From assembly GCA_012517355.1 (NCBI GenBank), contig JAAYVD010000043.1:1-47565 (forward strand): a DNA stretch of 47,565 nt, read 5' to 3'. This document shows positions 112 to 21,715 of the stretch, in pieces. How positions within the stretch are numbered: position 1 is the stretch's first letter; every line of letters starts with the position of its first letter. The position numbers and the translations under genes were made by a program. Origin of the DNA: Candidatus Rifleibacteriota bacterium (GTDB lineage Bacteria > Muiribacteriota > Ozemobacteria > Ozemobacterales > Ozemobacteraceae). The notes beneath the pieces are model-generated. The model did no database searches. It worked only from the letters and a program-made list of their open reading frames with translations, and was not told the DNA's origin.

Positions 112-1667
112 TTCCTGCCATGGGGGGCCCGGAACGTCTGCCGGGAAGGGTTGAGGCCCTGGCGGGGGCGGGGCTGTTCGCCCTCTGTTTCCTCAACGTG
201 ATGACGGTGACCTGGCTGTCGACGCGGGGGGAGCTGCTCTGCGTGGTGTTCATCCTGGGGGCCCTGCTGGTGTCGCTCCGGCTGCCGCTTGTACAAGATC
301 GCCCCTGGGTGCGGCGGGGGGCGTGGGCCCTGGCGCTGGGCAGCATGGCCCTGGGCCTGCTGGCGAAGGAGCTGGCGGCGGTCGTGCCGTTCCTGGTGGG
401 GGCGGGGGCGTGGTGGCAGGCCCGCGAGGCGGGGGCCACCTCGCGTCGGGCGGCCCGAAAGGCGTTGCGACGTGCCTGGCCGTTCTTCCTGCTGCTGGTG
501 CCGTATTTCCTGCTGCGGGCGTCGGTGGTCGGCCCGCTGACCCTGCCGGCCGCCCCCTTCTATTTCTTTCCCGTCACTTCCTGGCTGTTCCCGTATTTCG
601 TCTTTCAGAAGCTCGTCTACGCCCTGTTGTGGCTGGGCGCTTTCGTGCCTGCCCCACCGGCGCGACTGTTGATGGGGTTCCCGCTCTACCACGTGGTGTT
701 CATTCCCGCCGCCCTGGCCTTCCTCTACGGAGTGGTGCGCCTGATCGCCCCGGCGGTGCGGGATGAGCCGGGGGTGCGGCTGCTGGTGCCGTGCTTCCTC
801 CTCGCGTTCCTGCCCACCCTGCCGATCACCTTGTTCCCTCACTACCTCTACCTGCCGAGCGTGTTCTACTGCCTGGTTCTGGCGCGCGTGCTGCTGGGAG
901 GACCAGGGCAGGCCGGGGCGGCGGAAGCCGGGGCCGATCCGGGCGCGGGATGGGCGGAAGGCCCCCTCATGATGCGGGGAACGGATGCTTCGGGTCGCCA
1001 TCCCTGGCGGCAGGCGGGTATGGCCGACATCGTGCCGGTCGCTGCGGGCGGTCGGGCAGACCTGGCCGCCGGCGCCTATCTCGTCCTGTACCTGGTCGCC
1101 TTGATCGTCTCGCTGGTCCTGATCACCGGCCTGTTCGGCCTGGCCAGCCGGTCGACCGGACGGATGTGCGGCCGGCTGGCGGCGGCCTACGATCGGTTCC
1201 TGGCCAGGCCCGGCGCCCGCGATCCGCGCGCCGAGGCGGAATTCTACCTGTTCGACGTGCCGGTCGAGAAGGTCCACCTGTTCCCCGAGTTCCGGCTGCG
1301 GTACCCTGACCGGACGCGGTTCAAAGGCTTTTTCGTCAACCTCGCCGATCCTCTCATGCCCCCTTCGCGAATCACCGCGGACGCCGGGCAGGTCGTGGTG
1401 CAGGCAGCCGGGCACCCGTTCTATGCCAGCCCGTTCATCTTCTTCCTGGTCGGGCAGCTCGACCCGCGCCTGTTCGACGGGACCTACTCCTGCCCGTCAT
1501 TCCGGATCACGCTGGCCGGCAAGGAACCCCACCCCCAGACGGGCTTCACCGGCGCCAGGGAGATTCGCCTGCAGTTCGACCCGCGGCGCTCCCCGCCCGA
1601 CCGGCGGTTCGGTTTCCGCGGGATCCCCGACGCGTCAGGAACCTACGAGGTTGCCATGACGCCGTGA
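3..1667 (+). CDS. multi-spanning membrane protein, 5' truncated by the window
   Basis: The frame is open from the left edge, so the gene starts upstream; the GTG at 36 lies inside the tandem repeat and is probably not the start. The visible part has about eight hydrophobic segments and a soluble C-terminal tail of about 170 residues. The motifs STRGELLCVVFILGALL and LLAKELAAVVPFL resemble the membrane half of GT-C/PMT-type or TMTC-like glycosyltransferase-related proteins, but I cannot name the family. Between the last two membrane segments lies a roughly 55-residue Gly/Ala-rich insert. Part of its DNA (about 970-1042) is a copy of the dispersed 83-bp repeat found elsewhere in the window. The gene stops at 1665-1667. 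Function is unknown; a cell-envelope sugar or lipid transfer role is only a guess. Confidence 0.8.
   Translation, partial: PVSVAGCPLAGVSTPVSVAGCPLAGVSTPVSVAGCPLPAMGGPERLPGRVEALAGAGLFALCFLNVMTVTWLSTRGELLCVVFILGALLVSLRLPLVQDRPWVRRGAWALALGSMALGLLAKELAAVVPFLVGAGAWWQAREAGATSRRAARKALRRAWPFFLLLVPYFLLRASVVGPLTLPAAPFYFFPVTSWLFPYFVFQKLVYALLWLGAFVPAPPARLLMGFPLYHVVFIPAALAFLYGVVRLIAPAVRDEPGVRLLVPCFLLAFLPTLPITLFPHYLYLPSVFYCLVLARVLLGGPGQAGAAEAGADPGAGWAEGPLMMRGTDASGRHPWRQAGMADIVPVAAGGRADLAAGAYLVLYLVALIVSLVLITGLFGLASRSTGRMCGRLAAAYDRFLARPGARDPRAEAEFYLFDVPVEKVHLFPEFRLRYPDRTRFKGFFVNLADPLMPPSRITADAGQVVVQAAGHPFYASPFIFFLVGQLDPRLFDGTYSCPSFRITLAGKEPHPQTGFTGAREIRLQFDPRRSPPDRRFGFRGIPDASGTYEVAMTP
970..1042 (+). repeat. 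83-bp family repeat copy, in frame inside the membrane protein gene
   Basis: The DNA from about 970 (gatgcggggaacggatg) through the catccctggcgg hairpin at 1000-1010 to gccgacatcgtgccggtcg at 1023-1041 aligns along its whole length with the intergenic copy at 17715-17800. It follows the same order: GAA..TTC hairpin, CC..GGCGG hairpin, CCGAC..CGGTC hairpin. It is translated as part of the loop between two membrane segments and keeps the frame open. Confidence 0.7.
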
Positions 1668-1894
1668 GGCGCCGCCTTCCCGAAGCCGGAAATCCTCTCC
1701 ATCCGGGGATTCCAGGCCCAATGCTCGCCCCGCGAAGCGAGGAGGTGACCGGAATGGCTGGGAGGGGGGAACATCCTTCGTTCCGGATCCTTTTTCGGGA
1801 TGGTGCAAACGCTCCGGGTTTCCGTTACCATGTCTTGAGGAAGTCCGGTGACGCCGGTCTTCCCAAGAGACAGACCGCGAATGCAGGAGGACCC

Positions 1895-2341
1895 ATGGGA
1901 TTCTTCGATACCTTGAAGTCGGTTGCCAACATGGTCACCGGTGGTTCCGCCACCGTCGCCCTCGAAGTGGTGCCGGAAACCGGCCGCACCTTCAAAGTCC
2001 AGATCAAGGCCACGGCCGCGGCCGACCTGAAGATCGAGAAGGTCTACCTGAAGGTCGAGGGGCATGAGACCGTCAAGGTCAAGATGAAAAAGGAACCGAC
2101 CGCCCAGGAGCGCGAAGAGAATTTTTCGGAAACCACCTACTCGCAGGAGACCGATGTTGCGCCCGGCCTGGAAATGAAGAAGGACGAGAGCAGGACCTGG
2201 GAGAGTTCGTTTTCCATTCCGAACGACGCGCCCCCCACCTACCAGGGCAAGCTTGCCCGGCACGAATGGCGGGTCTACGCCGCCCTGTCGGTGACCGGCA
2301 CCGATCCTGCCTCCGAGTGGAAGGTGGTCACCATCAAGTAG
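1895..2341 (+). CDS. small arrestin-like (SpoOM-like) protein
   Basis: 148 residues starting MGFFDTLKSVANMVTGG, with a strong ribosome binding site (AGGAGG at 1885-1890) five bases before the ATG. A longer frame upstream has no such signal. After a short amphipathic N-terminus, the sequence alternates beta-strand-like segments (SATVALEVVPETG, VYLKVEGHETVKVKM, ESSFSIPNDAPPTYQGKLARHEW). This pattern is typical of the arrestin-fold proteins represented in bacteria by SpoOM, which act as cytoplasmic scaffold or regulatory proteins. No signal peptide is visible. The assignment rests on the overall pattern and not on catalytic residues, so it is moderate. The gene stands alone between a membrane protein and a secreted lipase. 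Confidence 0.7.
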   Translation: MGFFDTLKSVANMVTGGSATVALEVVPETGRTFKVQIKATAAADLKIEKVYLKVEGHETVKVKMKKEPTAQEREENFSETTYSQETDVAPGLEMKKDESRTWESSFSIPNDAPPTYQGKLARHEWRVYAALSVTGTDPASEWKVVTIK

Positions 2342-2391
2342 CCCCGGGCCATTCCTTGCTCCGCTCCGCCTGTTGGAGGCCCCGGACGGGG

Positions 2392-2470
2392 AACGGGTAA
2401 CCGCGGATGGCCGCGGATGTTCCCGGTTGGGCGCGGATGAGGGCGGATCGCGCGCGGCGGATGACGGCGT
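2392..2470. repeat. short GCGGATG-type iterated motif in the intergenic region
   Basis: The 329-bp gap before the lipase contains closely spaced copies of gcggatg or gcggatc (about 2403, 2412, 2432, 2444). This is the ladder of CGCGGATG-like words that recurs in intergenic DNA of many bacteria. A related word (gaacaccgatgggc, minus strand) occurs near 21600-21615. The rest of the gap is GC-rich and shows no gene. Confidence 0.5.
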
Positions 2471-2670
2471 TTGTCTGCGGCCTGGGCATCCGGTCCAGTT
2501 TCCGCGGGGAAGCGGTCAGCCCCACCCCACCGGGGAGCCCCGTTCGTGACGGAGGGCCCGGGCCCCCCGGCCGGCTCCCCCGCCGGGGTCCGGCCGGTTC
2601 ACCCTTCTTCACAGGGCTCTGGTTGGCTTTTTCGGAGGAATCTGGTAGGCTGGTACCTGGAGGTTCCGGT

Positions 2671-3732
2671 ATGCCGATGTCTCCCCGTTGCCGTTTTCCG
2701 GTCTTCCTGCTGGCGATCTTCCTGTTGATCGCCGGTGTTGCCGCGGTCCGGGCGCAGGAGCAGGGCGCCGACTGCTATCGCACCCTGTTCCAGGCGCAGG
2801 CCGTCGGGCACGAACCGGTCAACGCCTACCTGTTGATGCTGGCCAACTACTACTCGTACGAGAACCGCATCAACGCGGCGGGTTCCGCCGATTTCCAGAA
2901 GCGGTTCCGGGAGAAGTTCGCTCCCTGGGGGTTCGACGAGTTCGATTTCCTCGACGTGCGGATGAAGACCGCCGACACCCAGGTGATGATCATGTCGAAC
3001 GATCAGGCCACCATCGTGGTCTTCCGGGGATCAGAGACCGGGAGCACCGGTGGCAACGGGTTGCGTCCGGCCAAGGCGATCTATGACTGGATCCTGACCG
3101 ATTTCAACTTTTTCCCCCGCAAGGTCAAAGAGTGGGGAAGCGGGGTCAAGGTTCACCGGGGCTTCTTCAATGCGTGGGCGGTGGTCAGCCGGTCTTTGTG
3201 CGAGCTTTGTACCAGGCACCTGGCCAAGCCGGGTCGGAAACTCTGGATCACCGGTCACAGCCTGGGTGCCGGGGTGGCGCCGATGGCCGCGATGGGTCTG
3301 GCCGCCGCGGGGCTTCCGGTGCAGGGCGTCTACACCTACGCCGGACCCCGGATCGGCAACCAGGCGTTCGTCGATGCCACTCTCGGGCGGCTGCCGTTCC
3401 TGCAGCGGTGGGTCAACGACCACGACCTGGTGACGATGGTTCCCTTCACCTGGATGGGCTTCCGGCACCTGGGCATGCCGAACAACCTGTATGAGAACGG
3501 CACCGTCGCCCTGCAGGACCAGCCCTTCACCGGTCTGGGAAAGGTCGCCCCGCACTCCCCAGGGTTGTACTTGCAGCGGCTGTTCGACAGCCTTCCCCTC
3601 GAAGTGCGCGACCAGCTGCCCGCCCCGCCATCCTTCCGCGGCGCCGACCCGGGGGATGCCGAACTGGAGCAGGCCTTCGCCCGGAAGCTGGCTGCCCGCC
3701 GGAACCGCCAGGAGACCCTCGAGGAGGACTGA
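2671..3732 (+). CDS. secreted class 3 lipase (alpha/beta hydrolase)
   Basis: 353 residues. The ATG at 2671 follows a ctggagg site at 2657-2663 and opens a classic signal peptide (about residues 1-28, ending VRAQ), so the enzyme is exported. The lipase class 3 nucleophile elbow GHSLGA is at 196-201 (Ser197). YTYAGPRIGNQAF (221-233) is the characteristic motif that follows it in this family. Asp252 (NDHDLVTMVP) and His295 (APHSPGLY) fit the rest of the triad. The FRGSE strand near 118-122 is the usual oxyanion-side strand. The family hydrolyses acylglycerols or other esters; the substrate is not deducible. It is a single gene followed by an intergenic repeat array. Confidence 0.9.
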   Translation: MPMSPRCRFPVFLLAIFLLIAGVAAVRAQEQGADCYRTLFQAQAVGHEPVNAYLLMLANYYSYENRINAAGSADFQKRFREKFAPWGFDEFDFLDVRMKTADTQVMIMSNDQATIVVFRGSETGSTGGNGLRPAKAIYDWILTDFNFFPRKVKEWGSGVKVHRGFFNAWAVVSRSLCELCTRHLAKPGRKLWITGHSLGAGVAPMAAMGLAAAGLPVQGVYTYAGPRIGNQAFVDATLGRLPFLQRWVNDHDLVTMVPFTWMGFRHLGMPNNLYENGTVALQDQPFTGLGKVAPHSPGLYLQRLFDSLPLEVRDQLPAPPSFRGADPGDAELEQAFARKLAARRNRQETLEED

Positions 3733-3878
3733 CCTTCCTGCCGGAACGGGGGGCCATCGCCCCGCTCGTTCCCCTCCAATGACCGGCCCTTTCCCACGAC
3801 AGGGTCGACCAGCCTGTATTCATGCGGGGTTCCATGGACGGCTGAGGAAAACCACCCCCCGTCGGGGAGGGTCCCCTG

Positions 3879-4119
3879 GCGATGCGCGAACCCGAGGTTC
3901 CGCGCCGCCATCCGTGGCGGTACAGGGGGAGCCCTTTTGCTGTCGTGCCGGTCGGCCATTTGGCGGTACGCGAAAATGGCGCTTCGCCCCGCCGTCCGGC
4001 GGCACAGGGGAGCCTTTCGGATGCCGTGTCGGTCGGCCCCTTTGCGGTGCGCGAAACCCGGGTTTCTCGCCACCATTCATGGCGGCACGGGGGAAGCCCT
4101 TCCGACCTCGTGCCGGTGG
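3879..4119 (+). repeat. three tandem copies of the 83-bp palindrome-rich repeat
   Basis: Three head-to-tail units at about 3879-3961, 3962-4044 and 4045-4119, each about 83 bp. Every unit carries three potential hairpins: a GCGAA..TTCGC-type stem, a CCGCC..GGCGG-type stem, and a terminal region ending TCGTGCCGGTCGG. Units are diverged at loops but keep stem complementarity, for example gcgaaacccgggtttctcgc in unit 3. They lie in the gap between the lipase and the convergent FKBP gene. Related copies are at 970, 7738-7968, 15837, 17715, 18445 and 21671. Confidence 0.85.
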
Positions 4120-4180
4120 GATGCGGCCGGCCGGGCCCGGGTCGGGGGATGACCCGGGCCGGCGGGTCGGAGGGGTAGGT

Positions 4181-4621
4181 TCAGCGCTTGTGGACTTTGA
4201 TCAATTCCACCTGGAAGTACAAGGTCGCGTCGGGGGGGATCACCGGGGGCATGCCGCGCGGGCCGTAGCCGAGGGACGAGGGGATCGACAGGTGCCAGAC
4301 GGCCCCTTCCTTCATCAGTTGCAGGGCTTCGGTCCAGCCCTTGATGACCCCGTTGACCGGGAACCGGGCGGTCTTCCCGCGGGAATAGGAACTGTCGAAC
4401 TCGCGGCCGTCGGCGAACTGGCCGCGGTAGTGGACCTCGGCCTCGTCGGTGGCGGTCGGGGAGACGCCGGTGCCTTCCTTTTCGACGCGGTATTTCAGGC
4501 CGCTGGGCAGGGTGGTCATGCCCTCTTCGGTCGGTTTGGGGGCGGCGGGTGCGGTGGTGCCGCATCCGGCCATGGCCAGGCAGATCAGGGAGGACAGACC
4601 GACCGCGAGACAGGTGTTCAT
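4181..4621 (-). CDS. FKBP-type peptidyl-prolyl isomerase, lipoprotein
   Basis: 146 residues. The N-terminus MNTCLAVGLSSLICLAMAGC is a lipoprotein signal peptide with lipobox LAMAGC (lipidated Cys20), so the enzyme is expected at the envelope. The FKBP domain follows from about residue 38: LPSGLKYRVEKEGTG, the strand VHYRGQFADGREFDSSYSRG, VIKGWTEALQLMKEGAVWHLSIPS, the SLGYGPRG loop, and the final strand ATLYFQVELIKV. Active-site aromatic residues (Tyr, Phe-Asp, Trp, Tyr) are in the usual places. It would catalyse cis-trans prolyl isomerisation during folding of exported proteins. The site aaggag lies about eight bases before the ATG. Confidence 0.93.
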   Translation of the reverse strand: MNTCLAVGLSSLICLAMAGCGTTAPAAPKPTEEGMTTLPSGLKYRVEKEGTGVSPTATDEAEVHYRGQFADGREFDSSYSRGKTARFPVNGVIKGWTEALQLMKEGAVWHLSIPSSLGYGPRGMPPVIPPDATLYFQVELIKVHKR

Positions 4622-4730
4622 GTGGGCGCTCCTTGTGTTGGTCCGGGATGGGGGCCGGCGGTGCCGGGGGCCCGTCCCGTCCCGGGCAGTATGCCACGGG
4701 CGGGTGGGAAAAGAAACGGTGATCCGCCAA

Positions 4731-4820
4731 AAGGCCTGCCGAAGGGGCTTTGCCCCTGTACCCCACCAGGGTCGATGGCCCTGGGCCCTTCAGCCGGCGG
4801 GGTGAACCCTGACGCGTCAC
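4731..4820 (+). repeat. dispersed repeat with GGGGCTTTGCCCC and CCAGGG..CCCTGG hairpins, copy 1
   Basis: About 85 bp containing cgaaggggctttgcccct, then accccaccaggg..ggccctggg..ccctt. The same ordered blocks occur reverse-complemented at about 39665-39770. Each block is a small hairpin. The repeat fills most of the 305-bp gap between the FKBP lipoprotein and the next minus-strand gene. Confidence 0.85.
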
Positions 4821-4926
4821 CTTTCGGAAGCTGCGCCTCGCGGTCCGGCAGCCCTGGAACGGGCTGGAGAAAAGACAGCCGGCGGCCAGGGGGCCGCCGG
4901 CGGGAAGGGACAGAGAGGGTTTGCGG

Positions 4927-5508
4927 TCAGTCGAGCTGGCCGATGTAGTCCTTGGCGGATTCGATGCGGGCCGCGGCTTCTTCGAAGTCGAAGGCGACGA
5001 GGTAGAACTTGGCGTGGGAGATGCGCTTGGAGAGCTGCTTGAAGGCGGGCTTCAGGTGCTTGGGGGGCCGGACCTTGCCGAGGGCGGAGAGGGCGTGGTT
5101 GAGGTGGCCGACGGCGGGGATGACCTTCTTGTAGGACTTTTCCTTGCCGTCGAGGGTATTGAGGGCGAGTTCGAGGTCCTTGTCGGCGAGGACGAGGAGC
5201 TTCTTGAGGAGCTCGGCCTGCTTGGCTTCCTTGGCGGGATCCTTGGCGAACAGCTTCTTGATGAACTGCCACAGGCCGCAGCCCTTCTTCTGGCCGGGGA
5301 TCTGGTCAGCCTGGCCCGCCTGGTCGGACTGGCCGGCGTCGTCGCCCTGGCCGACCTGCCCGGCCTGGTCCCCCTGGCCGGCGTCATCGCCCTGGCCGAC
5401 TTCGGGGACGGGGGCGGGGGTCTGCTGGGACTGGCCGGCGAAGCCGGTCACGGGAGAGAGGAAGGAGACCATCAGGGCCACGAGAACCAGGAAACAAGCC
5501 TTTTTCAT
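4927..5508 (-). CDS. exported protein with Gly-Gln-Asp repeats
   Basis: 193 residues. The ATG at 5508 is preceded by ggagga and begins a signal peptide (MKKACFLVLVALMVSFLSPVTGFAG). Residues about 38-70 form a low-complexity repeat of the type GQGDDAGQGDQAGQ. The C-terminal 120 residues are charged and predicted helical (KDPAKEAKQAELLKKLLVLADKDLELAL.. and RISHAKFYLVAFDFEEAAARIESAKDYIG), like a small periplasmic helical bundle. A longer upstream frame exists, but the strong site and signal peptide favour this start. I do not recognise the family. It is isolated between a dispersed repeat and the insertion sequence. Confidence 0.75.
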   Translation of the reverse strand: MKKACFLVLVALMVSFLSPVTGFAGQSQQTPAPVPEVGQGDDAGQGDQAGQVGQGDDAGQSDQAGQADQIPGQKKGCGLWQFIKKLFAKDPAKEAKQAELLKKLLVLADKDLELALNTLDGKEKSYKKVIPAVGHLNHALSALGKVRPPKHLKPAFKQLSKRISHAKFYLVAFDFEEAAARIESAKDYIGQLD

Positions 5509-5649
5509 AATTCCTCCGGTGTGATGATTTGGGGTGATCGGGAGCGGATGATGCCCGGGAAAGCGCAAAGGACGTGCCAACCGGAGAAGCTGATCACCAG
5601 AGGATGGGCGAGGGGCGGGCGATCGGGGTGCGGGAATCCCGGCAGCCGG

Positions 5650-6612
5650 CTACCGGATTCCCGGCCGGGCTTTTCCACTTCCCTCATGTTTGGCCCAGAA
5701 CCGGTACGGGCGGCCCTGCACCATGGCTCCCTGCGAGATGAGGCGCTGGAACAGGAGACCGATCTGGGGCGACTTGCGGCGATTGAACCGGAAGACGAAC
5801 TCGTCGAGGTAGCCTTGCAGGTGCCGGCGGGCCACCCGTCCCTGGTGGGTGCCCAGCAGCCAACGGCGCACCAGGGTGACGATGCGCCGGACCAGGGGCA
5901 GGGGGTGGGCGGGGTCGTCGGTGTCGGTCAGCCGGACCCGGCGGTAGCCTTCGGGGGCGAGATGGTCGAAGCCTGGCCAGGAATCCGTCTGGATGAGGGC
6001 CCGCGGGAAGATCTCCTGCCGGACGAACCCGAGCATCAGCCGGTCGGGGGCGCGGGTGATGTCGAGCAGGCGGATGCGGCCCATCTCGCCGTCGCCGGGG
6101 TCGACCTCGACCGCCACGGCCACCCGGGCGGTGCGCCAACCCTCCCCCTTGCCGGGCCGGTCCCCCGCCAGCCAGGCCTCGTCGACCTCGACGCGGCCCT
6201 GCAGGGGTTCGCGCTCGAGCCGGACCATGGCCTGTCGCAGCTTCTGCAGCCAGGTCCAGGCCGTCTGCATGCTGCCCAGGCCGAGGATGCGCTTGAGGCC
6301 GGCGGCGCTCAGGCCGGTCTTCTGGGTGCAGACCCACCACATGGCCCGGAACCAGAGCTGCAGGGGCTGCCTGGTGCCGTGCATGACGGTGCCGGCGGTC
6401 AGGGAGACCTGGTGGCCGCAGGAACCGCATTCGACCGCCTGGCGGTGGTTGGTCCAGCCGCGGTCGTGCCCGCAGGCGGGGCAGCGGAATCCCTGAGGCC
6501 AGCGCTGGGCTCGCAGGTAGACGGCGCAGGCCGCCTCGTCCCCGAACCGGCGCTCGAACTCGGGCAGGTCGCGGGGGAAGTCGGGGAGCGGGAACAGCTC
6601 CTTGGCAGGCAT
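5650..6612 (-). CDS. IS1595-family (ISXO2-like) transposase
   Basis: 320 residues from MPAKELFPLPDFP. An N-terminal zinc ribbon (CPACGHDRGW.. ECGSCGHQ, about residues 47-72) is followed by the family block SLTAGTVMHGTRQPLQLWFRAMWW. The DDE-type catalytic domain starts with VEVDEAWLAG, then TDSWPGFDHL, and ends with the HLQGYLDEFVFRFNRR helix typical of IS1595/ISXO2. The frame looks intact, so the element may be active. No Shine-Dalgarno is visible, as is usual for transposases. The last codons and the stop at 5650 lie outside the left terminal inverted repeat, so the C-terminus KARPGIR is supplied by flanking DNA. A longer upstream frame runs through the 30-bp repeat array and is not likely to be translated. 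Confidence 0.92.
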   Translation of the reverse strand: MPAKELFPLPDFPRDLPEFERRFGDEAACAVYLRAQRWPQGFRCPACGHDRGWTNHRQAVECGSCGHQVSLTAGTVMHGTRQPLQLWFRAMWWVCTQKTGLSAAGLKRILGLGSMQTAWTWLQKLRQAMVRLEREPLQGRVEVDEAWLAGDRPGKGEGWRTARVAVAVEVDPGDGEMGRIRLLDITRAPDRLMLGFVRQEIFPRALIQTDSWPGFDHLAPEGYRRVRLTDTDDPAHPLPLVRRIVTLVRRWLLGTHQGRVARRHLQGYLDEFVFRFNRRKSPQIGLLFQRLISQGAMVQGRPYRFWAKHEGSGKARPGIR

Positions 6613-6645
6613 GCCGGAAAGGTAACATGAACGAAGTGGAAAAGC
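5669..6645 (-). mobile_element. IS1595-like insertion sequence with terminal inverted repeats
   Basis: The ends are inverted repeats. The left end (5669-5690) reads GCTTTTCCACTTC then ccTCATGTT. The right end (6645-6624, read inward) reads GCTTTTCCACTTC then gtTCATGTT. That is 20 of 22 positions matched. The element is 977 bp, normal for IS1595. The immediate 8-bp flanks (ccggccgg and aatacaaa) do not match, so no target duplication is visible. This suggests an old insertion, flanking decay, or ends slightly different from those I drew. A 28-32 bp tandem repeat array lies about 105 bp beyond the right end. Confidence 0.82.
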
Positions 6646-6750
6646 AATACAAAAGGGCGGGGCTGCCGGGTGGACGGGGAGCGGGCGGGGAGGGCCGGCC
6701 GGGGGGGGGGGAGGGTGAGGAGGGATCAGCCGGGCGGGCAGGAGGGGGGG

Positions 6751-6904: not shown

Positions 6905-8026
6905 TCAGTCAGCCGGGCGGGTGGAGGGGGCGGGGTGGGCGGCCTGCCACTTCTTGACCAGGTCGCGGGCCTCGGCGATCTGCTGGAAGGTCATCCGCGC
7001 CGCCAGTTCCTCGCGCTCCCCGGCCGCCTTGGGGTGACCCCGGGCCGCGGCCAGGTCGAGCCACATCCAGGCCTGGGTGGTGTCCTGGAGCACGCCCTCG
7101 CCCAGGGCGCAGGCCAGGCCGTAGGTGAACTGGGCATCTGGGTCCCCCTGGTCGGCGGCCATCTTCAGCCAGCGGGCCGCCTGGCGGGGGTCGCGACGGA
7201 CACCGGTGCCGCGTCCGTACAAATTACCAAGGTTGTACTGGGCCTGGGCGACGCCGGCCTCGGCCGCCTTCCGATACCATTCGGCGGCCGCCTTGGGGTC
7301 GCGGGGCACCCCGCGGCCCTGTTCGAGCATCGCGCCCAGGTTGAGTTGCGAGGCGGCGTCACCGCGCTCCGCCGCCATTTTGTACCAGTGGGCCGCCGCC
7401 TCCGGGTCGGCGGGGACGTCCGTCCCCTCCTCCAGCATCAACCCGAGATTGCGGGCCGCGAAGACGTCGCCGTTGGTCGCCGCGCGCCGGTACCAGTCGG
7501 CGGCCTGCTGCCCGTCGGCCGGCACGCCCAACCCCTTCCAGAACATCAGGCCGAGATTCCGCTGGGCGCCGGCGTGATCCTGTTCCGCCAGTTTCCGGAA
7601 GAGGCGGAGGGCCCGGGCGTGATCCCCCCGTTCCGCGGCCCGGACCCCCTCGTCGAACTCGTCGGCCTGCGCTCCGCCCAGGGTCGCCAGGACCAGCAGG
7701 GCGGCCAGCAAGAGGACCGCGCCCTGGCCGTGCTCGGAACGGGCGTTCGACCCCTCCCTCCGCGGCAGCAGCAGGGGGCTTCCGACCTCGAGCCGTCCGG
7801 TTCCCTGGCGGTGGGCGTAGCCCGACGGCGTCTCCCCCGCCCGCGAGGGCAAGCGAGCCTGGCCGCTCCCCGGACGGTCGGCAGCCAGGTGGTGGCCGAA
7901 GCGGGGCTTCGCTGCCCCCTTCCGCGTCGGCAAGGAAAGGTGACCGACGCCGGGTCGGTCGGCGGCATCGGTGGTGCCCGGGGTGGTCGTTCCCCGCCCG
8001 GCGGGTGATGAGGCGGTCGGTCGCAT
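6905..8026 (-). CDS. exported Sel1-repeat protein with repeat-expanded N-terminus
   Basis: 373 residues from ATG 8026, chosen because caggag precedes it by about nine bases. At least five Sel1/TPR-like units follow one another from about residue 145 (AGAQRNLGLMFWKGLGV..WYRRAA, FAARNLGLMLEEGTDV..WYKMAA, ASQLNLGAMLEQGRGV..WYRKAA, AQYNLGNLYGRGTGV..WLKMAA, AQFTYGLACALGEGV..WLDLAA). Sel1 arrays form solenoids that bind protein partners. The hydrophobic core of a signal peptide (AVLLLAALLVLATLGGAQA) begins only near residue 100. The roughly 95 residues in front are Arg/Pro/Gly-rich and are encoded by diverged tandem copies of the 83-bp repeat. Either the signal peptide has a hugely expanded n-region, or a later, weaker start is used. 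Confidence 0.85.
   Translation of the reverse strand: MRPTASSPAGRGTTTPGTTDAADRPGVGHLSLPTRKGAAKPRFGHHLAADRPGSGQARLPSRAGETPSGYAHRQGTGRLEVGSPLLLPRREGSNARSEHGQGAVLLLAALLVLATLGGAQADEFDEGVRAAERGDHARALRLFRKLAEQDHAGAQRNLGLMFWKGLGVPADGQQAADWYRRAATNGDVFAARNLGLMLEEGTDVPADPEAAAHWYKMAAERGDAASQLNLGAMLEQGRGVPRDPKAAAEWYRKAAEAGVAQAQYNLGNLYGRGTGVRRDPRQAARWLKMAADQGDPDAQFTYGLACALGEGVLQDTTQAWMWLDLAAARGHPKAAGEREELAARMTFQQIAEARDLVKKWQAAHPAPSTRPAD
7738..7968 (+). repeat. about three diverged tandem copies of the 83-bp repeat inside the Sel1-protein gene
   Basis: Read on the plus strand, three segments align with the repeat: about 7755-7800 (cagcagggggcttccgacctcg..ccgtccgg), about 7838-7882 (cgcgagggcaagcgagcctgg..cggacggtcgg), and about 7896-7962 (gaagcggggcttcgctgcc..cgtcggcaagg..ccgacgccgggtcggtcgg). 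They run antisense to the gene and encode its n-region ahead of the signal-peptide core. Divergence is greater than in the 3879-4119 array. Confidence 0.6.
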
Positions 8027-9256: not shown

Positions 9257-9270
9257 GCGGGGCACCCGGG

Positions 9271-9384
9271 CGCGGTCTCGGCGCCGGTCTCGGCGCCGGT
9301 CTCTGCGTCGGTCTCGGCGCCGGTCTCTGCGCCGGTCTCTGCGCCGGTCCTTGTGCCTGTCTCTGCGCCGGTCCCCGCGCCGGG
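9271..9384. repeat. 12-bp tandem repeat, about nine copies
   Basis: Units of the form cgccggtctcgg or cgccggtctctg follow each other without interruption between the propeller gene and the kinase operon. They are slightly diverged. A frame runs through part of it, but the kinase start at 9701 has its own binding site, so the array is probably non-coding. The remaining 300 bp before the kinase show no other gene. Confidence 0.9.
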
Positions 9385-9700
9385 CGCTCCCTGCCCGGCG
9401 TGGGCCGTCCGGAGCAGGCGGTGGGGCGTCCGCCGCCCACCCCTGCGGGCTGGCCGGCCGTCGTGGCCGTCCGGACGGGCGCCACCCCCGAGCGGATGTC
9501 CGTGTCGCCGCGGGGTCCCCCTCCCCGCCGATGACCAAGGCTGCCGCCGCGGGGTGGGGAAGACGCCGGTTCCAGCCGGGGTCGCGGCTCCCGGTTCCGG
9601 GCGGAGCAACTTCCCCCTGCCCGCCCGGCGGAATTCGGGTATACTCTCGGGGAGAGCGGCGCGGGCCGACCTGACGGCCCCCGCCGGGGAGTGGGAAGCC

Positions 9701-13667: not shown

Positions 13668-13712
13668 CGGCCGGCCGTCGCCCGACGTTCGCCCGACCGG
13701 CCCGAGCTTCTC

Positions 13713-14219: not shown

Positions 14220-14450
14220 TTCATCAACCTCCCATAAGTGGGGCCGTCGCCGGCCCCGGATCTCCCGACATGTTACCCGGATTCCCCGCCCCTCTCAACC
14301 ATGTCCGCGGCCCGGCAGCAATCCGCACTCATCGATGCGAGGCCTTTCTGACGGACAAAAAGACCCTCCAGCCTTTCGACTGACTCATCAATCCACGTTC
14401 TTCATCCACCCATCGATGCTGATTGCGCAGGTCGTGTTGGCGATTCCCTT

Positions 14451-14522
14451 CGCCATTTTCCCTCCCCTCCCCCTTCCCCTGCCGCCCTCGAGGTTTCTGT
14501 CGAAATGCTGAAGTCTCAACAA
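14451..14522 (+). repeat. dispersed AT-richer repeat, copy 1
   Basis: About 70 bp starting cgccattttcccnccc, continuing through a C-rich run into gccgccctcgaggtttctg and cgaaatgctgaagtctc, then an A-run. The same order of blocks is present at 39561-39627 in the same orientation. It lies in the 499-bp divergent gap between the zinc-ribbon gene and the next exported protein. No other gene or convincing promoter was seen in that gap. Confidence 0.85.
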
Positions 14523-14718
14523 AAATGTCCGCAGGCATCTGCCCCATTCACAAGTCATGCCCAAGTTGTCCGGAAAACCGCACCAGAGGGCATCGTGAGA
14601 TTGGCTGGTGGACCCGATGGGATGATTCGGGGATGCTCGACCCCAATCGAGGGCGGTGCGGAGTGGTATGATAAGACGCATGAAAATGCCGGGAATGTCA
14701 GATCGGGAGGGTGCGGGA

Positions 14719-15624: not shown

Positions 15625-15836
15625 TCACCGTTGGCGCGGATCAACCCCCGCGAGCCGCCCGAACAGGGGAACCGCACCCCCTTCCGTGGAGGCGGGGGGA
15701 TGTTCAGACCGGGTGCCGGTCTGATCTTTGGACTCGAGGGCCCGGCAGACCGGGATTCGGGGTACGAGGGCTTGGGGGGCCGGGGTGACCGGGTGGGCGG
15801 TCCTGGAAAGGAACCTGCCGCCGGCCGCAGGTTCCG

Positions 15837-15925
15837 ACCGACACGATGTCGGAAGTGCCCCTGTGCCGCCACGGATGGCGGCGCGAAACGCGAGTTTCGC
15901 GCATCGCACAGGGGCCCTCAGCGGA
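15837..15925 (-). repeat. 83-bp family repeat, well-preserved intergenic copy
   Basis: On the plus strand it reads ccgaccgacacgatgtcgg, then ccgccacggatggcggc, then gcgaaacgcgagtttcgc with gcatcgcacagggg. This is the reverse complement of the unit at 4045-4119, with all three hairpins intact. It fills the end of the 293-bp gap after the exported protein gene and reaches the stop codon of the next gene. Confidence 0.85.
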
Positions 15926-17243
15926 CGGCCTGGATGGCGGCGGCGGGGATGGCGACGGGGATCTTGAACTCGAAATACAGGTCGAGGCCGAACACCTCGC
16001 GCAGCGCGTCGTAGAGGAGGTTTCCCGCCTCGCCCCGGCCGAGCCGGGCTTCGAGCGAGGCCCAGTTCTCCCGGTCGGTGCGCCAGAGGACGGTCAGGTG
16101 TCGGCGCAGGGCTTCCCGCGACAGGGCCTCGAAATCGGACACGGTGAAATCGAGGCTGGCCAGCGCCCCCCGCACCCTCAACCAATCGGGCAGGCGGCGT
16201 TGCAGCACGCGCAGCCAGCGGGATTCCTGCCGCTTGCTGGGGCCCAGGCGGGCGGTGATGGCCTCCCAGCCGGCCGAGGCGATCCCGGCGAGTTCCCGCG
16301 GAAACTCGCGTTGGAAGTCGGCCAGGAAGGCCGCCGACAGGGCGGGGTCGAGAGAATCGCCGAACCGTGCCAGGTCGTAGGGATACATGACGTAGGCGGA
16401 GACCCAGCCCCGGTCGCGGGCGAAGTCGGGGGCGGGGGAGAACTTGTACTTCCCGTACAGCGATTCGCGGTGGGAGCCGAGAGACCCGTCGACCTGCAGG
16501 CCGACGAAGAAGAACAGGTTGTCGTCGGATCGCAGCAGGAACCGGTTGAAGGCGTAGGTATTCAGGCCGCCCAGGCCGGTCACCTCGCGGATGATCCGGG
16601 AACTCACCAGCGGCAGGTCGGGAACGTCGCGGACGACATGGGTGTTGTGGACGAACACCAGCGACAGCCGGTCGAGCCACTTCTGCACGTCGGCCGGAAC
16701 GGCGTCCGTCATGGGCGGCAACCGCTGTTCGAGCCGTTGCCGGTTGGCGGCGCTGAGTCGGGCCAGGGCGGCGTAGCCGTCCCCGTCCAGCGCAAGGCCG
16801 CCGCCGTGGCGGACCCACAGCGACCGCCAGAGGGAGGCCGATTGCCGCGGGCGCAGGCGGACCGGGTCATCGAAGGCGCGGAACTGCCGTTCCAGAAACT
16901 CCTGGACGAGGGTCCGACGGTGGTCGGGGGCCAGCCCCAGCGGGTCGTGGATGCCGCGCCCGGCCAGGAACTCCTGGAACGGCAACTGGCAGAGCATCTC
17001 GACCCACAGGGCGCGCAGCGGCTCCCGCGGCCCCTTCCCGGTGTTCGTGAGCAGGTATTCCAGAAGCAGTTCGACGGAGGAGGAGAACCGGGGCTCGTCC
17101 TCCTCGACGGCCAGGGGCGCGGCCGACGCGCCGGTTCCGATCAGGAGCCAGGCGGCCATCGCCACCCACACGACCGTGGAAGCCGGACCAGGGAAGGGAT
17201 GCGGCCGGGGCCGGGAGCTTCCGGATGTTGCTGAGGGGATCAT
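15918..17243 (-). CDS. exported protein of unknown function, 441 residues
   Basis: The ATG at 17243 follows ggag with nine bases spacing. The N-terminus has a Pro/Arg-rich n-region of about 24 residues and then a signal core (STVVWVAMAAWLLIGTGASA). The mature protein has no membrane segments. Conserved-looking blocks include LVFVHNTHVVRDVPDLP, GGLNTYAFNRFLLRSDDNLFFFVGLQVDG and GWVSAYVMYPYDLARFGDSLDP. These suggest a compact globular fold, but I cannot match it to a family. It ends within or next to the 83-bp repeat copy and is not obviously in an operon. Confidence 0.75.
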   Translation of the reverse strand: MIPSATSGSSRPRPHPFPGPASTVVWVAMAAWLLIGTGASAAPLAVEEDEPRFSSSVELLLEYLLTNTGKGPREPLRALWVEMLCQLPFQEFLAGRGIHDPLGLAPDHRRTLVQEFLERQFRAFDDPVRLRPRQSASLWRSLWVRHGGGLALDGDGYAALARLSAANRQRLEQRLPPMTDAVPADVQKWLDRLSLVFVHNTHVVRDVPDLPLVSSRIIREVTGLGGLNTYAFNRFLLRSDDNLFFFVGLQVDGSLGSHRESLYGKYKFSPAPDFARDRGWVSAYVMYPYDLARFGDSLDPALSAAFLADFQREFPRELAGIASAGWEAITARLGPSKRQESRWLRVLQRRLPDWLRVRGALASLDFTVSDFEALSREALRRHLTVLWRTDRENWASLEARLGRGEAGNLLYDALREVFGLDLYFEFKIPVAIPAAAIQAVR

Positions 17244-17621
17244 GGGGGGGACTCCTTTTGGACAAGGCGTTTTCAGGGCTGGGGGAGCGGGCACTGATGC
17301 CTGTTTCCGGAAACCAGCCTACAACACCAGCCTCCGACCGGCAAGCGGGGGGCCCCCCGGCGCGGGTGGTGACCCGCGAACCTTGGCGGACGGCCATGGG
17401 TTCGTTTTCCCCCCCCTTCCATTCAATCCCGAACATCCTTGTCCCGACAAAAAGTTCTGCCCCCCCTTCGCCCCATCCCCCGCTTCCCCAGCATTCTTGA
17501 GATCCCTGGCCAAAGACGGGAGCTTCCTGATGCCCGTGAATTTCCCCTTGACGCGGGCAGGTGCTGCGGATATCTTCGTCGTGCCGAAGCGGCAACACCC
17601 CACGAAAGGAGGCGTGCCTGT

Positions 17622-17672
17622 ATGTCGATCCGCAATGAGCAGTGGCAATCACGCCTCGGGGGGCTTTCCTAG
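17622..17672 (+). CDS. 16-codon small ORF or truncated gene start
   Basis: ATG at 17622 is preceded by a strong AAAGGAGG (17606-17612) with nine bases spacing. It encodes MSIRNEQWQSRLGGLS and a stop. It stops some 40 bp before the 83-bp repeat copy at 17715. It could be a leader peptide or the remaining 5' end of a gene cut by repeat insertion. The other parts of the 688-bp gap (17244-17931) are Pro-coding-like GC-rich DNA without a convincing gene. Confidence 0.3.
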   Translation: MSIRNEQWQSRLGGLS

Positions 17673-17714
17673 CCGCCTTTCCCATCATTTCCGACGAGGA
17701 AGCCGTCCCCAGGG

Positions 17715-17800
17715 ACGGTCCCCTTGCCGTGCGCGAAACGTCCGTTTCGCCCCGCCGTCCGTGGCGGCAAGGGGCATGGCCGACCCCGTGCCGGTCGGCT
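17715..17800 (+). repeat. 83-bp family repeat, intergenic copy upstream of rsgA
   Basis: Contains gcgcgaaacgtccgtttcgc, then cgccgtccgtggcggcaagg and gccgaccccgtgccggtcgg. It aligns end to end with the coding copy at 970-1042 and the array at 3879-4119. Confidence 0.85.
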
Positions 17801-17931
17801 TGCCTGTTCCCTTCCAGGCGTGATCCGGACGTTCTGACGCGGATCCGCGCGCCAGGGCCGGCGCCGGGAGCGGGAGCGATCCCCTTCCCTGCCGTCCCCG
17901 GCTGTTCGGGACACACGAAGGGAACCAAACC

Positions 17932-19482
17932 TTGCACGCGCATGACCGCCGGAGACTGGCCGAACTGCTCGACCGCCTCCCGCCCAAGCAACGAAGAACC
18001 TTGTACAAACGCGCCGCCGATGTCAGGCGGCAATGGACCTCGGCGTTCCGACCGGCCTCCCGCCTGTCGGGACGGCTGTCCCGTGACGACGATGACGACG
18101 GCCCTGCCGTCCTTCCTGCCGGTCGGGGGGGCCGTGATCCCCTGCCCGGGGGAACCGTGCCGCTCCGTCCACGGGGCGGGCCCAGCCTCGACGAGATCGT
18201 CCTGAAGCTGCTGCGGGAATCCTGCGACAACGCGGATGTCCTGGTCCCCGCCCCGGAAGGGCAGGCTTCCCCGGGGCCCGGCTCGTTGCCCGATGACCCG
18301 GAATCGCAGGGCGGGTGCCGGTCTCCGGTCGCCGGGGTCGAGGGGGTGCTCATTCCGCCAGAAGACCGGTGGCTCCCCAAGGGTGACGGAGCCGATCCTT
18401 CTGTCTCCACTCCTATCCCGGCATCGTCCCATCCCGGGCCCGACCCGACCGACACGACGTCGGTTGGGCTCCCTGGCGGGGCGGGCGAGGGGCCCAGACC
18501 GTTCGCGGCTCCCCCCGCCAGGGGGGCGGCGGTGGGGCTGGTGACGGGCATCGGGCCGGGGGTCTGCCATGTCCTGCGGGACGGCCGGGCGGTGACCTGC
18601 GCCCTGCATCCCGACCTGATCCGGCGCCAGCAGACCGACCTGGCGGTCGGAGACCGGGTCTGGTGCGAGGACGGGGCTGGGCCTTGGACGGGGCCCGGAG
18701 CCGCCTCCGTCGTGCGCCAGGTCCTGCCCCGGACCAGCCGGCTGTCCCGTCGCGACCCGGGTAACCCGCACCGGGAGAGGGTCATCGCTGCCAACGTCGA
18801 TCTGGCCGTCATCGTCGGGGCGGCGGGGGACCCGCCGCTGCATCCCACCCTGATCGACCGGTATCTCGTGGCCCTTGGCCAAGGCGGGGTGAAACCGGTG
18901 ATCTGCCTCAACAAGGGCGATCTCGCGCCGGCCGGACCCGGCCGGGACCGGCTGCTGGAGCGCCTGTCGCCCTATCGCGGCCTGGGGATTCCGGTCGTGG
19001 TGGTCAGCGCTGTCACCGGCGAGGGCCTGGCCGGGTTGCGCGGCGAACTGGCCGGCCGGATGGCGGTCTTCGTCGGTCACAGCGGGGTGGGCAAGTCCTC
19101 GCTCCTGAACGCGCTGGAACCGGGGCTCGACCTCGCGGTCAACGGTCTGCGCCGCGGCGATGGGAAGGGCCGGCACACGACCACCGGGTCCACGCTCTAC
19201 CGCCTGTCGGGCGGCATCACGGTGATCGACACGCCCGGTATCCGCGAGTTCGGGCTGTGGCGCATGACCCCCGCCGATCTGCGGCACCACTTCGCGGAGT
19301 TCGCCGCCGCGGCTCACGGCTGCCGGTTCGGCGACTGCACCCACCTGCACGAGCCGGGTTGCGCGGTCCGCGCCGGCGTCGCCCAGGGCCGGCTGCCACG
19401 GGAGCGCTACCAGAGTTACCGGAAGTTGCTCGGGGCACCCGAGGGGGATGACCCCTTCCCCTCGTCGGAACCCACCGCCTGA
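17932..19482 (+). CDS. rsgA: ribosome small subunit-dependent GTPase A with an expanded N-terminus
   Basis: 516 residues; the family is usually 290-350. The GTPase is circularly permuted as in RsgA: OB-fold (about 198-270), G4 NKGD (327-330), SAVTGEG (359-365), P-loop GHSGVGKSSL (382-391), and DTPG (433-436). The C-terminal zinc site is C464-x4-C469-x-H471-x5-C477. RsgA helps late maturation of the 30S subunit. Residues 1-35 (RRLAELLDRLPPKQRRTLYKRAADVRRQW) and about 84-97 look like ordered helices. The stretches between and after them (about 36-83 and 105-197) are low-complexity, and one includes a partial 83-bp repeat. The frame opens with TTG at 17932; no better start with a binding site is apparent. 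Confidence 0.93.
   Translation: MHAHDRRRLAELLDRLPPKQRRTLYKRAADVRRQWTSAFRPASRLSGRLSRDDDDDGPAVLPAGRGGRDPLPGGTVPLRPRGGPSLDEIVLKLLRESCDNADVLVPAPEGQASPGPGSLPDDPESQGGCRSPVAGVEGVLIPPEDRWLPKGDGADPSVSTPIPASSHPGPDPTDTTSVGLPGGAGEGPRPFAAPPARGAAVGLVTGIGPGVCHVLRDGRAVTCALHPDLIRRQQTDLAVGDRVWCEDGAGPWTGPGAASVVRQVLPRTSRLSRRDPGNPHRERVIAANVDLAVIVGAAGDPPLHPTLIDRYLVALGQGGVKPVICLNKGDLAPAGPGRDRLLERLSPYRGLGIPVVVVSAVTGEGLAGLRGELAGRMAVFVGHSGVGKSSLLNALEPGLDLAVNGLRRGDGKGRHTTTGSTLYRLSGGITVIDTPGIREFGLWRMTPADLRHHFAEFAAAAHGCRFGDCTHLHEPGCAVRAGVAQGRLPRERYQSYRKLLGAPEGDDPFPSSEPTA
18445..18482 (-). repeat. partial 83-bp family repeat inside rsgA
   Basis: The plus strand reads ccgaccgacacgacgtcgg followed by ttgggctccctggcgggg. 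This matches the start of the copy at 15837 (reverse orientation) with few changes. It encodes DPTDTTSVGLPGG in the low-complexity region just before the RsgA OB-fold. Confidence 0.6.
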
Positions 19483-19568
19483 ACGGTCTTCCTCACCGGT
19501 TTTGGGCCCGGGCCGGCCAGCGGCGGCGGGTCGCGGTGCCGGCCGCCTGAGCTTTACCGGAAGACGGA

Positions 19569-19600
19569 GAGGGCCGGCCGGGAAGCCCCGGTCGGCCCTC
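19569..19600 (+). terminator. terminator-like hairpin after rsgA
   Basis: A 14-bp stem (gagggccggccggg paired with cccggtcggccctc, one G-T pair) with loop aagc. There is no T-run after it, so Rho-independent activity is uncertain. It could also serve as a stabilising structure. The rest of the 336-bp gap is GC-rich with no gene. Confidence 0.5.
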
Positions 19601-19818
19601 AGCGCGCCCGAGGGATCAGGCCCGACGGAAACCGCCTTCGGTGATCCGGACGGCCCGGCCTTGGGCATCGGGCCGGCCGCTGAGATGCCCTGCGGTCCGG
19701 CGGCCGGTCCTTCCCTCGAAAGTCGAGCGGCTTTTCCAAACCCCCTGGCTGGATGGCCGTTCGAAGTCGGCGGCGGTGACGGTCACGGTGAAGGTCACGG
19801 CCAGTCCGTGGGGGGCTT

Positions 19819-20439
19819 TCAGAACGTCAGACGCTTCGCCGCCTCGATGGCTTGTGCCAGCTTCTGCTGCGCTACTTCCGGGCCCGCGCCGAGCATGGGC
19901 TGGGCCTTGATGAAGGTGGGCTCAGGGATGCCGATGAACCCGAGCATGGTGCGCAGAGGGGGTTCCAGCAGGTCCATGGCCTTGGCGGGGCCTTCGCTGT
20001 AGTCGCCGCCGTGGGAGGTGACGACGATGACCCGCTTGCCCTTCGCCAGGCCCTCGGGGCCGTTCTCGGTGTACCGGAACAGGTGGCGCGGCTGCAGGAT
20101 GACGTCGAAGTAATGCTTCAGCACGTAGGGCATCCCGAAGTTCCACATGGGGGAGCTGATCACCACGATGTCGGCGGCCTTGAACCGCTCGATGTGGGCG
20201 AGGATCGGCTGCCAGGCGGGCATGGTCTCGGCATCGAGTTCCTTGCCGCTGAGCAGGCGGTATTTGCCGTCGGTGGCCGTCAAGGACATGGGTGGCAGGG
20301 ACTCGGCGAACAGGTCGAGGGTATCGACCTTGCCGTCGGGATGCTGGGACTGGAACCGGGCGATCACCTCGCGGGCGATCTTCAGGGTGTTGGACAACTC
20401 GCCGCGTGGCGAGGCGACCAGGTGCAACAGGGTTTTCAT
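19819..20439 (-). CDS. azoR: FMN-dependent NAD(P)H azoreductase / quinone reductase
   Basis: 206 residues, typical family length. The flavodoxin-like fold begins MKTLLHLVASPRGELSNTLKIA, whose SPRG..S loop binds the FMN phosphate. SSPMWNFGMPYVLKHYFD is the diagnostic AzoR/NQO FMN-binding motif, and VVTSHGGDYSEG is the second cofactor loop. Members reduce quinones and azo compounds by two-electron transfer and protect against electrophile stress. taggagg precedes the ATG. It begins 10 bases after the marR stop and so is the second gene of a MarR-controlled operon. Confidence 0.94.
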   Translation of the reverse strand: MKTLLHLVASPRGELSNTLKIAREVIARFQSQHPDGKVDTLDLFAESLPPMSLTATDGKYRLLSGKELDAETMPAWQPILAHIERFKAADIVVISSPMWNFGMPYVLKHYFDVILQPRHLFRYTENGPEGLAKGKRVIVVTSHGGDYSEGPAKAMDLLEPPLRTMLGFIGIPEPTFIKAQPMLGAGPEVAQQKLAQAIEAAKRLTF

Positions 20440-20449
20440 GGCAATCCTC

Positions 20450-20959
20450 CTAAGCTGTTGTTCGTCCGGATGGAACCCGGCGTAGACGAGGGGAAGGGGG
20501 GGGCTCGGGCGGCCCTTCGAGGGCCCGGCCGAGCTTGCGGCAGAGGGCGGCCAGGGTGTCCTGCTCGGCGGCGGTGAGGGGGCGGAAGGCTTCGGTGATG
20601 CCGCGCACGTGGTCGGGCAGGAGCCGTCGGACCAGTTCGCGGCCACGGGGGGTCAGGGCCACCGGGCGGCGACGGCGGTCGGTGGCGTGCCGGCGCCCGA
20701 CGAGTCCGTCGCGCTCGAGGTTGTCGATGACGAGGGTCAGGTTTCCCGCCGACTTGAGGATCTTACGCCCGAGCTCGCCCGGGGTCAGGGGACCCAGGTG
20801 ATACAGGGCCTCGAGCACGCCGAACCGGCTGTCGGTCAAACCGGCCGCGGCGATGACCCCGCCGGTGGCGCGGGTTACCCGGTCGGCCGCCCGCAGCAGC
20901 TTGATGAAGGCGCCGAGGGCCCGGACCTGGGCAGGGGTTCCGGCATAATGCGTGTCCAT
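20450..20959 (-). CDS. MarR-family transcriptional regulator of azoR
   Basis: 169 residues. The winged helix-turn-helix spans about 40-125: LTDSRFGVLEALYHLGPLTPGELGRKILKSAGNLTLVIDNLERDGLVGRRHATDRRRRPVALTPRG. This includes the recognition helix and the DRR wing typical of MarR. A Pro/Arg tail follows. MarR proteins bind palindromic operators and release DNA on ligand or oxidant binding. The promoter just upstream carries two matching palindromes, so autorepression together with azoR is expected. aaagg-agtcg precedes the ATG. Confidence 0.93.
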   Translation of the reverse strand: MDTHYAGTPAQVRALGAFIKLLRAADRVTRATGGVIAAAGLTDSRFGVLEALYHLGPLTPGELGRKILKSAGNLTLVIDNLERDGLVGRRHATDRRRRPVALTPRGRELVRRLLPDHVRGITEAFRPLTAAEQDTLAALCRKLGRALEGPPEPPPSPRLRRVPSGRTTA

Positions 20960-20974
20960 CGTTTCCGCGACTCC

Positions 20975-21012
20975 TTTGATATCAAAATAATTGACATCAA
21001 ATGAAGTGTCAA
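20975..21012 (-). promoter_or_regulatory. marR-azoR promoter with two overlapping MarR operators
   Basis: On the minus strand: -35 TTGACA (21012-21007), 17-base spacer, -10 TATTTT (20989-20984). A near-perfect palindrome TTGATGTCAA (21000-20991) sits between the two boxes. A perfect 12-bp palindrome TTTGATATCAAA (20986-20975) overlaps the -10 and the start region. Both share TTGA..TCAA half sites. Occupancy would block RNA polymerase directly. The region is conspicuously AT-rich for this genome. Confidence 0.85.
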
Positions 21013-21069
21013 GGAAAAAAGATAGAACGATCTAAGTCTGGCCCGTCGGCCCGCGCCCCGGGCCGGGTT

Positions 21070-21261
21070 TCAGCGCAGGACCTTCTTCACCTCGGCGACC
21101 AGCTTTTCCGGCTTGATCGGCTTTTCCTGATAGGCCGCCGCGGTCCAGGTGCGGCCGAGGATGCGCTGGAAATTCTCGGGAAAGTGGGGGGTGGCCTCCG
21201 TGGCTTCCTTGCCGTTGTACGCGACGCTCACGGCATGCCCGGCCTTCCCCCTGGCGGCCAT
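21070..21261 (-). pseudogene. fragment resembling the C-terminus of a receiver domain
   Basis: 63 codons ending TAAAYQEKPIKPEKLVAEVKKVLR. The AYxEKPIKPEKLxxEVKKVL block is what follows the conserved Lys in response-regulator receivers, but the N-terminal two-thirds of such a domain, with the acidic pocket and phospho-Asp, is absent. It shares a frame with the FdhD-like fragment upstream, so an artificial fusion of 151 codons is open. I read this as a remnant. A short real gene is possible. Confidence 0.45.
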
Positions 21262-21309
21262 GTGAGGCGTGGGGTGACGTCTGGGCTGTCCATCGCCCGA
21301 AGCCGCCGA

Positions 21310-21539
21310 CCGGGTCAAGGCAGCCGGGACGGGCAGCCGGGTGCGGGCCGGCAGATTCAGGCCCTCGGACAGCAGGAACCCGAGGGCGCGGTCCTCGCGC
21401 CCGTCGGCCAGGGCCAGCAACCGGACCAACTCGGTCCCGTCGACGATCAGGGGGATGCTGGCCCGCGCACCACCGTCCCGGTGACGGCCAGCCACCCTCC
21501 GTCGGCGAACCGGGCGGCGCTCCACCCGTCGGTGGTCAT
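21310..21539 (-). pseudogene. fdhD: decayed fdhD 5' fragment (formate dehydrogenase accessory sulfurtransferase)
   Basis: From ATG 21539 one frame reads MTTDGWSAARFADGGWLAVTGTVV. About 80 bases on, the next frame continues RASIPLIVDGTELVRLL followed by ALADGREDRALGFLLSEGL. Joined, these match the N-terminal part of FdhD: a variable start, then the IPLxIxVNGxE strand, then the ALGFLLSEG helix. The rest of FdhD, including its Cys loop, is missing. A frameshift near 21460 and a 3' deletion are therefore needed, so this is a pseudogene. FdhD matures molybdenum formate dehydrogenases, many of which are selenoproteins, which fits its position after selB. Confidence 0.6.
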
Positions 21540-21670
21540 GCGCGCCTTCCCCGGGGTGTCCGCCCGGCCGTAGGGATCCCGCTTCTGAAGCGTCTCATGC
21601 CGTGCCCATCGGTGTTCATCTATGGTGTCTTCCGCCACTGCCGATCGGCGGGCGGGCGTTCCTGGACCCT

Positions 21671-21715
21671 CCCGGCACGATGTCGGAAGGCTTTCCCCGT
21701 GCCGAGACGGCGCCG
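21671..21715 (-). repeat. partial 83-bp family repeat between selB and the fdhD remnant
   Basis: The plus strand reads cggcacgatgtcggaagg then ctttccccgtgccg. This is the reverse complement of the 3' half of the unit at 4045-4119. It lies a few bases after the selB stop. Confidence 0.65.

Follow-up and report, generated by a model that had tools for sequence, protein, structure and literature searches.

What sort of sequence can lie between bacterial genes at some sites and in frame within them at others, while the host genes stay open? The question is raised by a 47,565-nt stretch of DNA from a Candidatus Rifleibacteriota bacterium (contig JAAYVD010000043.1 of assembly GCA_012517355.1), hereafter the window, in which an earlier note had described a palindrome-rich 83-bp repeat and compared it with the Rickettsia palindromic elements (RPEs). 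The repeat, whose commonest unit is 81 nt long, is a real, genome-wide and lineage-restricted palindromic family, and it is probably a mobile palindromic element, non-autonomous and directed to particular sites, whose behaviour resembles that of the RPEs.

A dispersed family of palindromic units

The sample comprised 839 kb (0.84 Mb; 66-69% GC) of the 7.11-Mb genome from which the window comes (G000), and two congeners, G001 and G002, served for comparison. A profile seeded with the window copies and then iterated on this sample (cut-off E<=1e-3) returned 128 copies, or 127 with contigs joined, against none in the same sequence reversed. When whole genomes were searched by pattern for the 3′ tag of the unit, allowing at most one mismatch, 317 occurrences were found in G000 and 15 in G002, with none in G001 and none in the backwards control. 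The existence of further copies had been set as a test beforehand, and the 127 units in 0.84 Mb and 317 tags in the genome answer it clearly. Because the 127 sampled units accompany 47 tags with at most one mismatch, the 317 tags genome-wide would correspond to roughly 850 units in G000. The 1.56 Mb of G001 examined contained no copy, and a covariance model of the unit, run on 40 genomes of the phylum, gave matches only in G000 (at least 114) and G002 (8), with none in the 37 genomes beyond these three. Copies at unrelated loci of the sample reach 98-99% pairwise identity, and the family has therefore dispersed recently.

The unit itself measures 81 nt, or 27 codons, in 40 of 66 full units and 84 nt in a further 18 (58 of 66 together), neither being the 83 bp first given. 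The three hairpins originally described capture its hairpin-rich character but not its architecture: the consensus folds into a three-way junction, in which an outer stem, CCCCTTTGC/GCAAAGGGG, surrounds two hairpins, and a further hairpin, CCGACA-TCG-TGTCGG, comes 3′ of the junction. As RNA or single-stranded DNA this consensus is stable on both strands (z -3.7 to -5.5), and three pairs of the outer stem show compensatory changes of both partners in subfamilies; RNAalifold by itself recovered only part of the structure. A related unit of 60 nt (20 codons), found in tandem in G002 (L074 25-131) and as single copies in G000, has the 3′ hairpin of the 81-nt unit and a single 5′ hairpin, and the two units form a modular family.

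The edges of the unit are sharp, conservation beginning at GGNCGG|CCCC and stopping at GTGTCGGTCGG|, and the end profiles contain no terminal inverted repeats. The hexamer that precedes the unit is preferentially GGACGG at leftmost copies and GGTCGG at internal joins, which indicates that it is common to neighbouring units. The left hexamer, GGNCGG with A favoured, differs from the right one, GGTCGG, and relatives lack a base-exact empty site. Adjacent pairs of units number 27, against 0.35 expected by chance, and the sequence at most of the joins is GGTCGG|CCCC or nearly so. Since identity between neighbours within arrays averages 67.4%, about the same as the 66.5% of score-matched random pairs, the arrays grow by independent serial insertion beside an existing GGTCGG end, and not by duplication.

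Units within genes and their tolerance by proteins

With genes called loosely, 48 of the 127 copies fall inside them and, as 88% of the sample is coding, the repeat avoids genes, yet they are not forbidden to it. Orientation within genes shows no bias (18 same, 17 opposite), the hosts read the units on both strands and in several frames, and the insertion phases, in small numbers, match the codon phase usual for GG[AT]CGG.

In-frame insertion absent from orthologues is well shown in the genome outside the window. The clearest host is an N-acylglucosamine-2-epimerase-like (AGE-like) gene (C127:123490-125844; Pfam PF07221), which contains three units (81 aa) where the orthologues of four other genomes (G003, G005, G007 and G012) run contiguous, as well as another insert, some 57 residues long, that includes a degenerate copy. 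In its AlphaFold model, residues 255-333 have a pLDDT of about 25 and no secondary structure, and are looped out between two strands. NadB (C71:92803-94665) carries units, inserted antisense, between its FAD-binding and C-terminal domains, and the insert is absent from the G001 and G002 orthologues. A protein-kinase/histidine-kinase-like protein (C71:1112-7852; domain names assigned from sequence, with no domain scan) has three separate units in linkers, and both of those compared are missing in G001. Orthologues free of the repeat, with which the earlier note had proposed to compare the host proteins, are available for the AGE-like protein and NadB, and neither outcome that the note had named as refuting was obtained; its proposal of RPE-like tolerance in frame, in a GC-rich genome and with a sequence of its own, proved right in kind for these two genes and for the kinase gene.

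Over all six frames, the 66 full units contain 19 stop codons, compared with 82.7 +/- 7.8 in dinucleotide shuffles. The deficit persists in the 81-nt copies when each copy's own substitutions are re-placed at random (12 versus 30.9 +/- 4.8), and under the same treatment in intergenic copies alone (6 versus 14.2 +/- 3.3). The unit is probably tolerated in proteins through a length divisible by three and a near-total lack of stops in six frames; owing to these two properties, an insertion would usually add a 27-residue loop and not kill the protein. A bolder view, towards which we are drawn only tentatively and which we judge somewhat doubtful, is that such units belong to a class of mobile DNA of their own, 'protein-proofed', directed to sites and shaped by selection for 27-codon length and six-frame stop freedom since most targets are coding, with in-frame loops that would grow unit by unit through the regenerated target.

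Copies and other repeats in the window

Within the window, profile matches were obtained at several of the places listed earlier. One unit, at 961-1040 on the plus strand (E 4e-13), lies in an open reading frame (ORF) for a membrane protein (120-1667), where it is read as GPLMMRGTDASGRHPWRQAGMADIVPVA; the coding score is positive on both flanks and dips across the repeat. Pfam gave no match to this protein and 19 genomes of the family yielded no orthologue, for which reason insertion cannot be proved there. An intergenic, head-to-tail triplet occupies 3872-4117 on the plus strand, its units matching at 3872-3953, 3958-4034 and 4036-4117 (E 3e-15 for the last), with 84 nt from the first to the second and 81 nt from the second to the third. 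A degenerate plus-strand unit (7722-7795; 34 bits) is found in the divergent spacer upstream of a Sel1 gene. Two further units are intergenic: a near-consensus copy on the minus strand at 15834-15916 (profile match 15836-15915, E 1e-20), 98% identical to a copy within a kinase gene of another contig (C71:6704), and a plus-strand unit one base short at 17717-17798 (profile match 17719-17796, E 2.5e-14).

The other listed places hold the 3′ tag only. A tag scan gave one with two mismatches at 7944-7962 (plus strand), in the same Sel1-upstream spacer, and a possible degenerate one with three mismatches at 21668-21686 (minus strand), weak alone, for the stretch listed as 21671-21715; the stretch 18445-18482, in the spacer upstream of rsgA, contains an isolated exact tag, CCGACGTCGTGTCGGTCGG, on the minus strand at 18445-18463. 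The Sel1 and RsgA pieces had been taken for in-frame intragenic copies, but both lie in non-coding spacers whose reading frame is merely open: the Sel1-upstream spacer scores non-coding, and the local coding score before the RsgA GTPase gene is -11.5. Among the window copies, in-frame intragenic status plausibly holds only for 961-1040, whose ORF is credible.

The window also carries other repeats. A second dispersed repeat of about 168 nt (4706-4873) has 11 copies in the 0.84 Mb, all 11 intergenic, and short relatives in G001 and G002. A third, of about 155 nt (14341-14530, minus strand), occurs at dozens of sites in G000 with 84-92% identity and did not turn up in G001 or G002; in some of its copies a purine-rich stretch is followed by a possible 22-codon ORF (MAKGIANTTCAISIDGWMKNVD-like). 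At the contig edge, positions 1-112 consist of a 42-nt tandem repeat that is 100% identical to C172:1-112, and the assembly probably breaks there for that reason. A tandem repeat of 24 nt (23746-23865) encodes TLDQADPA units at the C-terminal end of the SelA ORF, and one of 12 nt (9261-9392), with at least nine units of CGGTCTCGGCGC, lies between genes.

Movement of the unit and its known counterparts

If the repeat works like the RPEs, as is probable, the junctions suggest that the unit (81 nt, CCCC...GTGTCGGTCGG) would insert just 3′ of a GGNCGG-like hexamer, adding 27 codons and producing no target duplication. Its own 3′ end, GGTCGG, would restore the target, and further independent copies could then insert alongside to yield head-to-tail arrays. 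Within genes, the unit would usually add a 27-residue flexible loop, with selection retaining insertions at loops and linkers, and movement may be single-stranded and hairpin-recognising, as for IS200/IS605 elements.

Several observations weigh against this reading. Only 25 of 54 leftmost copies keep an exact GGNCGG; no relative is close enough for a base-by-base empty site, G001 being too diverged; and no enzyme matching the 81-nt element was identified. The covariation score (0.066 versus 0.056 +/- 0.004 in shuffles) is modest, and the stop and length statistics do not represent independent events, the copies being related by descent. The fraction of copies in genes depends on the caller, here a home-made dicodon one; under a strict rule, by which the repeat must have on each side 300 nt that stay open and coding-like in a single frame, 16 of the 90 loci, with 24 copies, are inside genes, some probably in shadow frames, and about 12 of these sampled loci at least are securely intragenic.

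The earlier note had supposed a mobilisation of the repeat's own and proposed looking for a transposase associated with repetitive extragenic palindromic (REP) sequences, of the RAYT type. A Y1 (HUH) transposase was indeed found, one gene in G000 (L016 1119-2082; G000:C109) and one in G002 (L205), and both loci resemble arrangements of the TIR-associated tyrosine transposase (TIRYT) kind; no mobilisation of the 81-nt unit was shown, however, because both genes are flanked by a different, cognate palindrome, TTCCGGGGACrTGATAC, and the candidate was rejected as a RAYT-type mobiliser. No autonomous IS200/IS605-type partner sharing the unit ends was found, the sole Y1 gene of G000 having other ends, and nothing ties the reverse transcriptases on C69, C39 and C108 to the repeat. 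It nevertheless seems conceivable, if rather unlikely, that the resident transposase moves the units in trans, as a REP or TIR family in the classic RAYT/TIRYT manner, given that the enzyme is present in both repeat-bearing genomes and absent from repeat-free G001, and that hairpins at the unit ends suit single-strand transposition. Set against this are the foreign palindrome, a distance of no less than 6.6 kb from the G000 gene to the nearest unit, and the weakness of a correlation drawn from three genomes.

The stable fold on both strands and a few outer-stem pairs with compensatory changes would suit a conserved regulatory RNA element (a terminator, attenuator or mRNA-stability hairpin) dispersed for its function, yet this is very improbable for a sequence that is unbiased in orientation in genes, shows no clear preference among convergent, divergent and tandem spacers, also occurs inside coding sequence and has no Rfam match (covariance models, E<=1, window 1-24000). 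Still harder to credit is a protein-level repeat domain spreading as coding sequence, like the PARCELs: the 27-residue tandem units and the dyad symmetry of their DNA recall such domains, whereas more than half of the units lie outside called genes, both orientations and several host frames are used, insertions such as that in NadB are antisense, and the hosts include ordinary enzymes. Tandem duplication and gene conversion could explain why units follow one another head to tail every 81-84 nt, although we give this equally little credence as the source of arrays and copies, considering that array neighbours resemble each other no more than random pairs, that dispersed singles dominate and that near-identical pairs occupy different contigs. 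Shared GC-rich composition, suggested by the 66-69% GC of the sample, is refuted by the empty reversed control, the absence of the repeat from G001 in the same genus and profile E values down to 1e-48 for other G000 arrays.

Among known systems, PARCELs share tandem coding units of about 25 residues and dyad symmetry, but are amphipathic domains read in one frame in ORFs lacking assigned functions, whereas the 81-nt units are used in several frames, on both strands and also in spacers [PMC2996958]. ERIC, YPAL and the 107-bp Correia/NEMIS miniature inverted-repeat transposable elements are likewise small, may lack stops and can form in-frame fusions with genes [PMC2229807]; most of them carry terminal inverted repeats, which the 81-nt unit lacks, and duplicate their target, which the unit, judged by its junctions, would not do. 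The junction pattern of the unit would suit an IS200/IS605-type derivative, with end hairpins and a fixed, short target that it enters on the 3′ side and does not duplicate, although exact empty sites are lacking. With TIRYT repeats the family shares the Y1 transposase of both repeat-bearing genomes, not its palindrome, which is unrelated to the unit. REPs tagged GTAG or CGTC are also short, sharp-ended palindromes with intragenic, in-frame cases in O. terrae, R. conorii, Thauera and Thioalkalivibrio, and their grouped copies encode up to 82 aa [PMC3733652]; they differ in their length of 20-40 nt, their tag and, often, a cognate RAYT. Assignment to the REPs was rejected for units of 81-84 nt that end in GGNCGG|CCCC and GGTCGG, with no GTAG/CGTC tag and no RAYT with a matching repeat.

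The closest counterparts are the RPEs, which insert in frame in Rickettsia genes [PMC2229807, PMC10969869, PMC3767692], and the Wolbachia palindromic elements: in each case palindromes are dispersed in spacers and in frame in conserved genes, the hosts stay open and the mobilising enzyme is unknown, as in the 81-nt family, where the in-frame palindromes of the AGE-like, NadB and kinase genes and the contiguous AGE-like orthologues are of this type. Compared by description, RPEs are 105-146 bp [PMC2229807], mostly single long stem-loops of AT-rich intracellular hosts, whereas the 81-nt family combines a three-way junction and a hairpin, 68% GC and tandem arrays. The repeat had been called undescribed, which applies to the sequence family, new in the papers searched (no published description was found, in a search outside which most subscription literature lay), and not to the phenomenon of protein-tolerated palindromes, already known from RPEs and intragenic REPs [PMC3733652, PMC2229807, PMC10969869]. 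Until now such palindromes had been described as peculiar to Rickettsia and a handful of genomes rich in REPs, with no mechanism established. The 81-nt family is an independent case and, with hundreds of copies, an abundant one; its geometry is regular, a target hexamer can be proposed and sister species differ in having the repeat. Through it three questions become testable: how such repeats move, whether coding tolerance is a selected trait of the element and to what extent selfish DNA supplies new protein loops.

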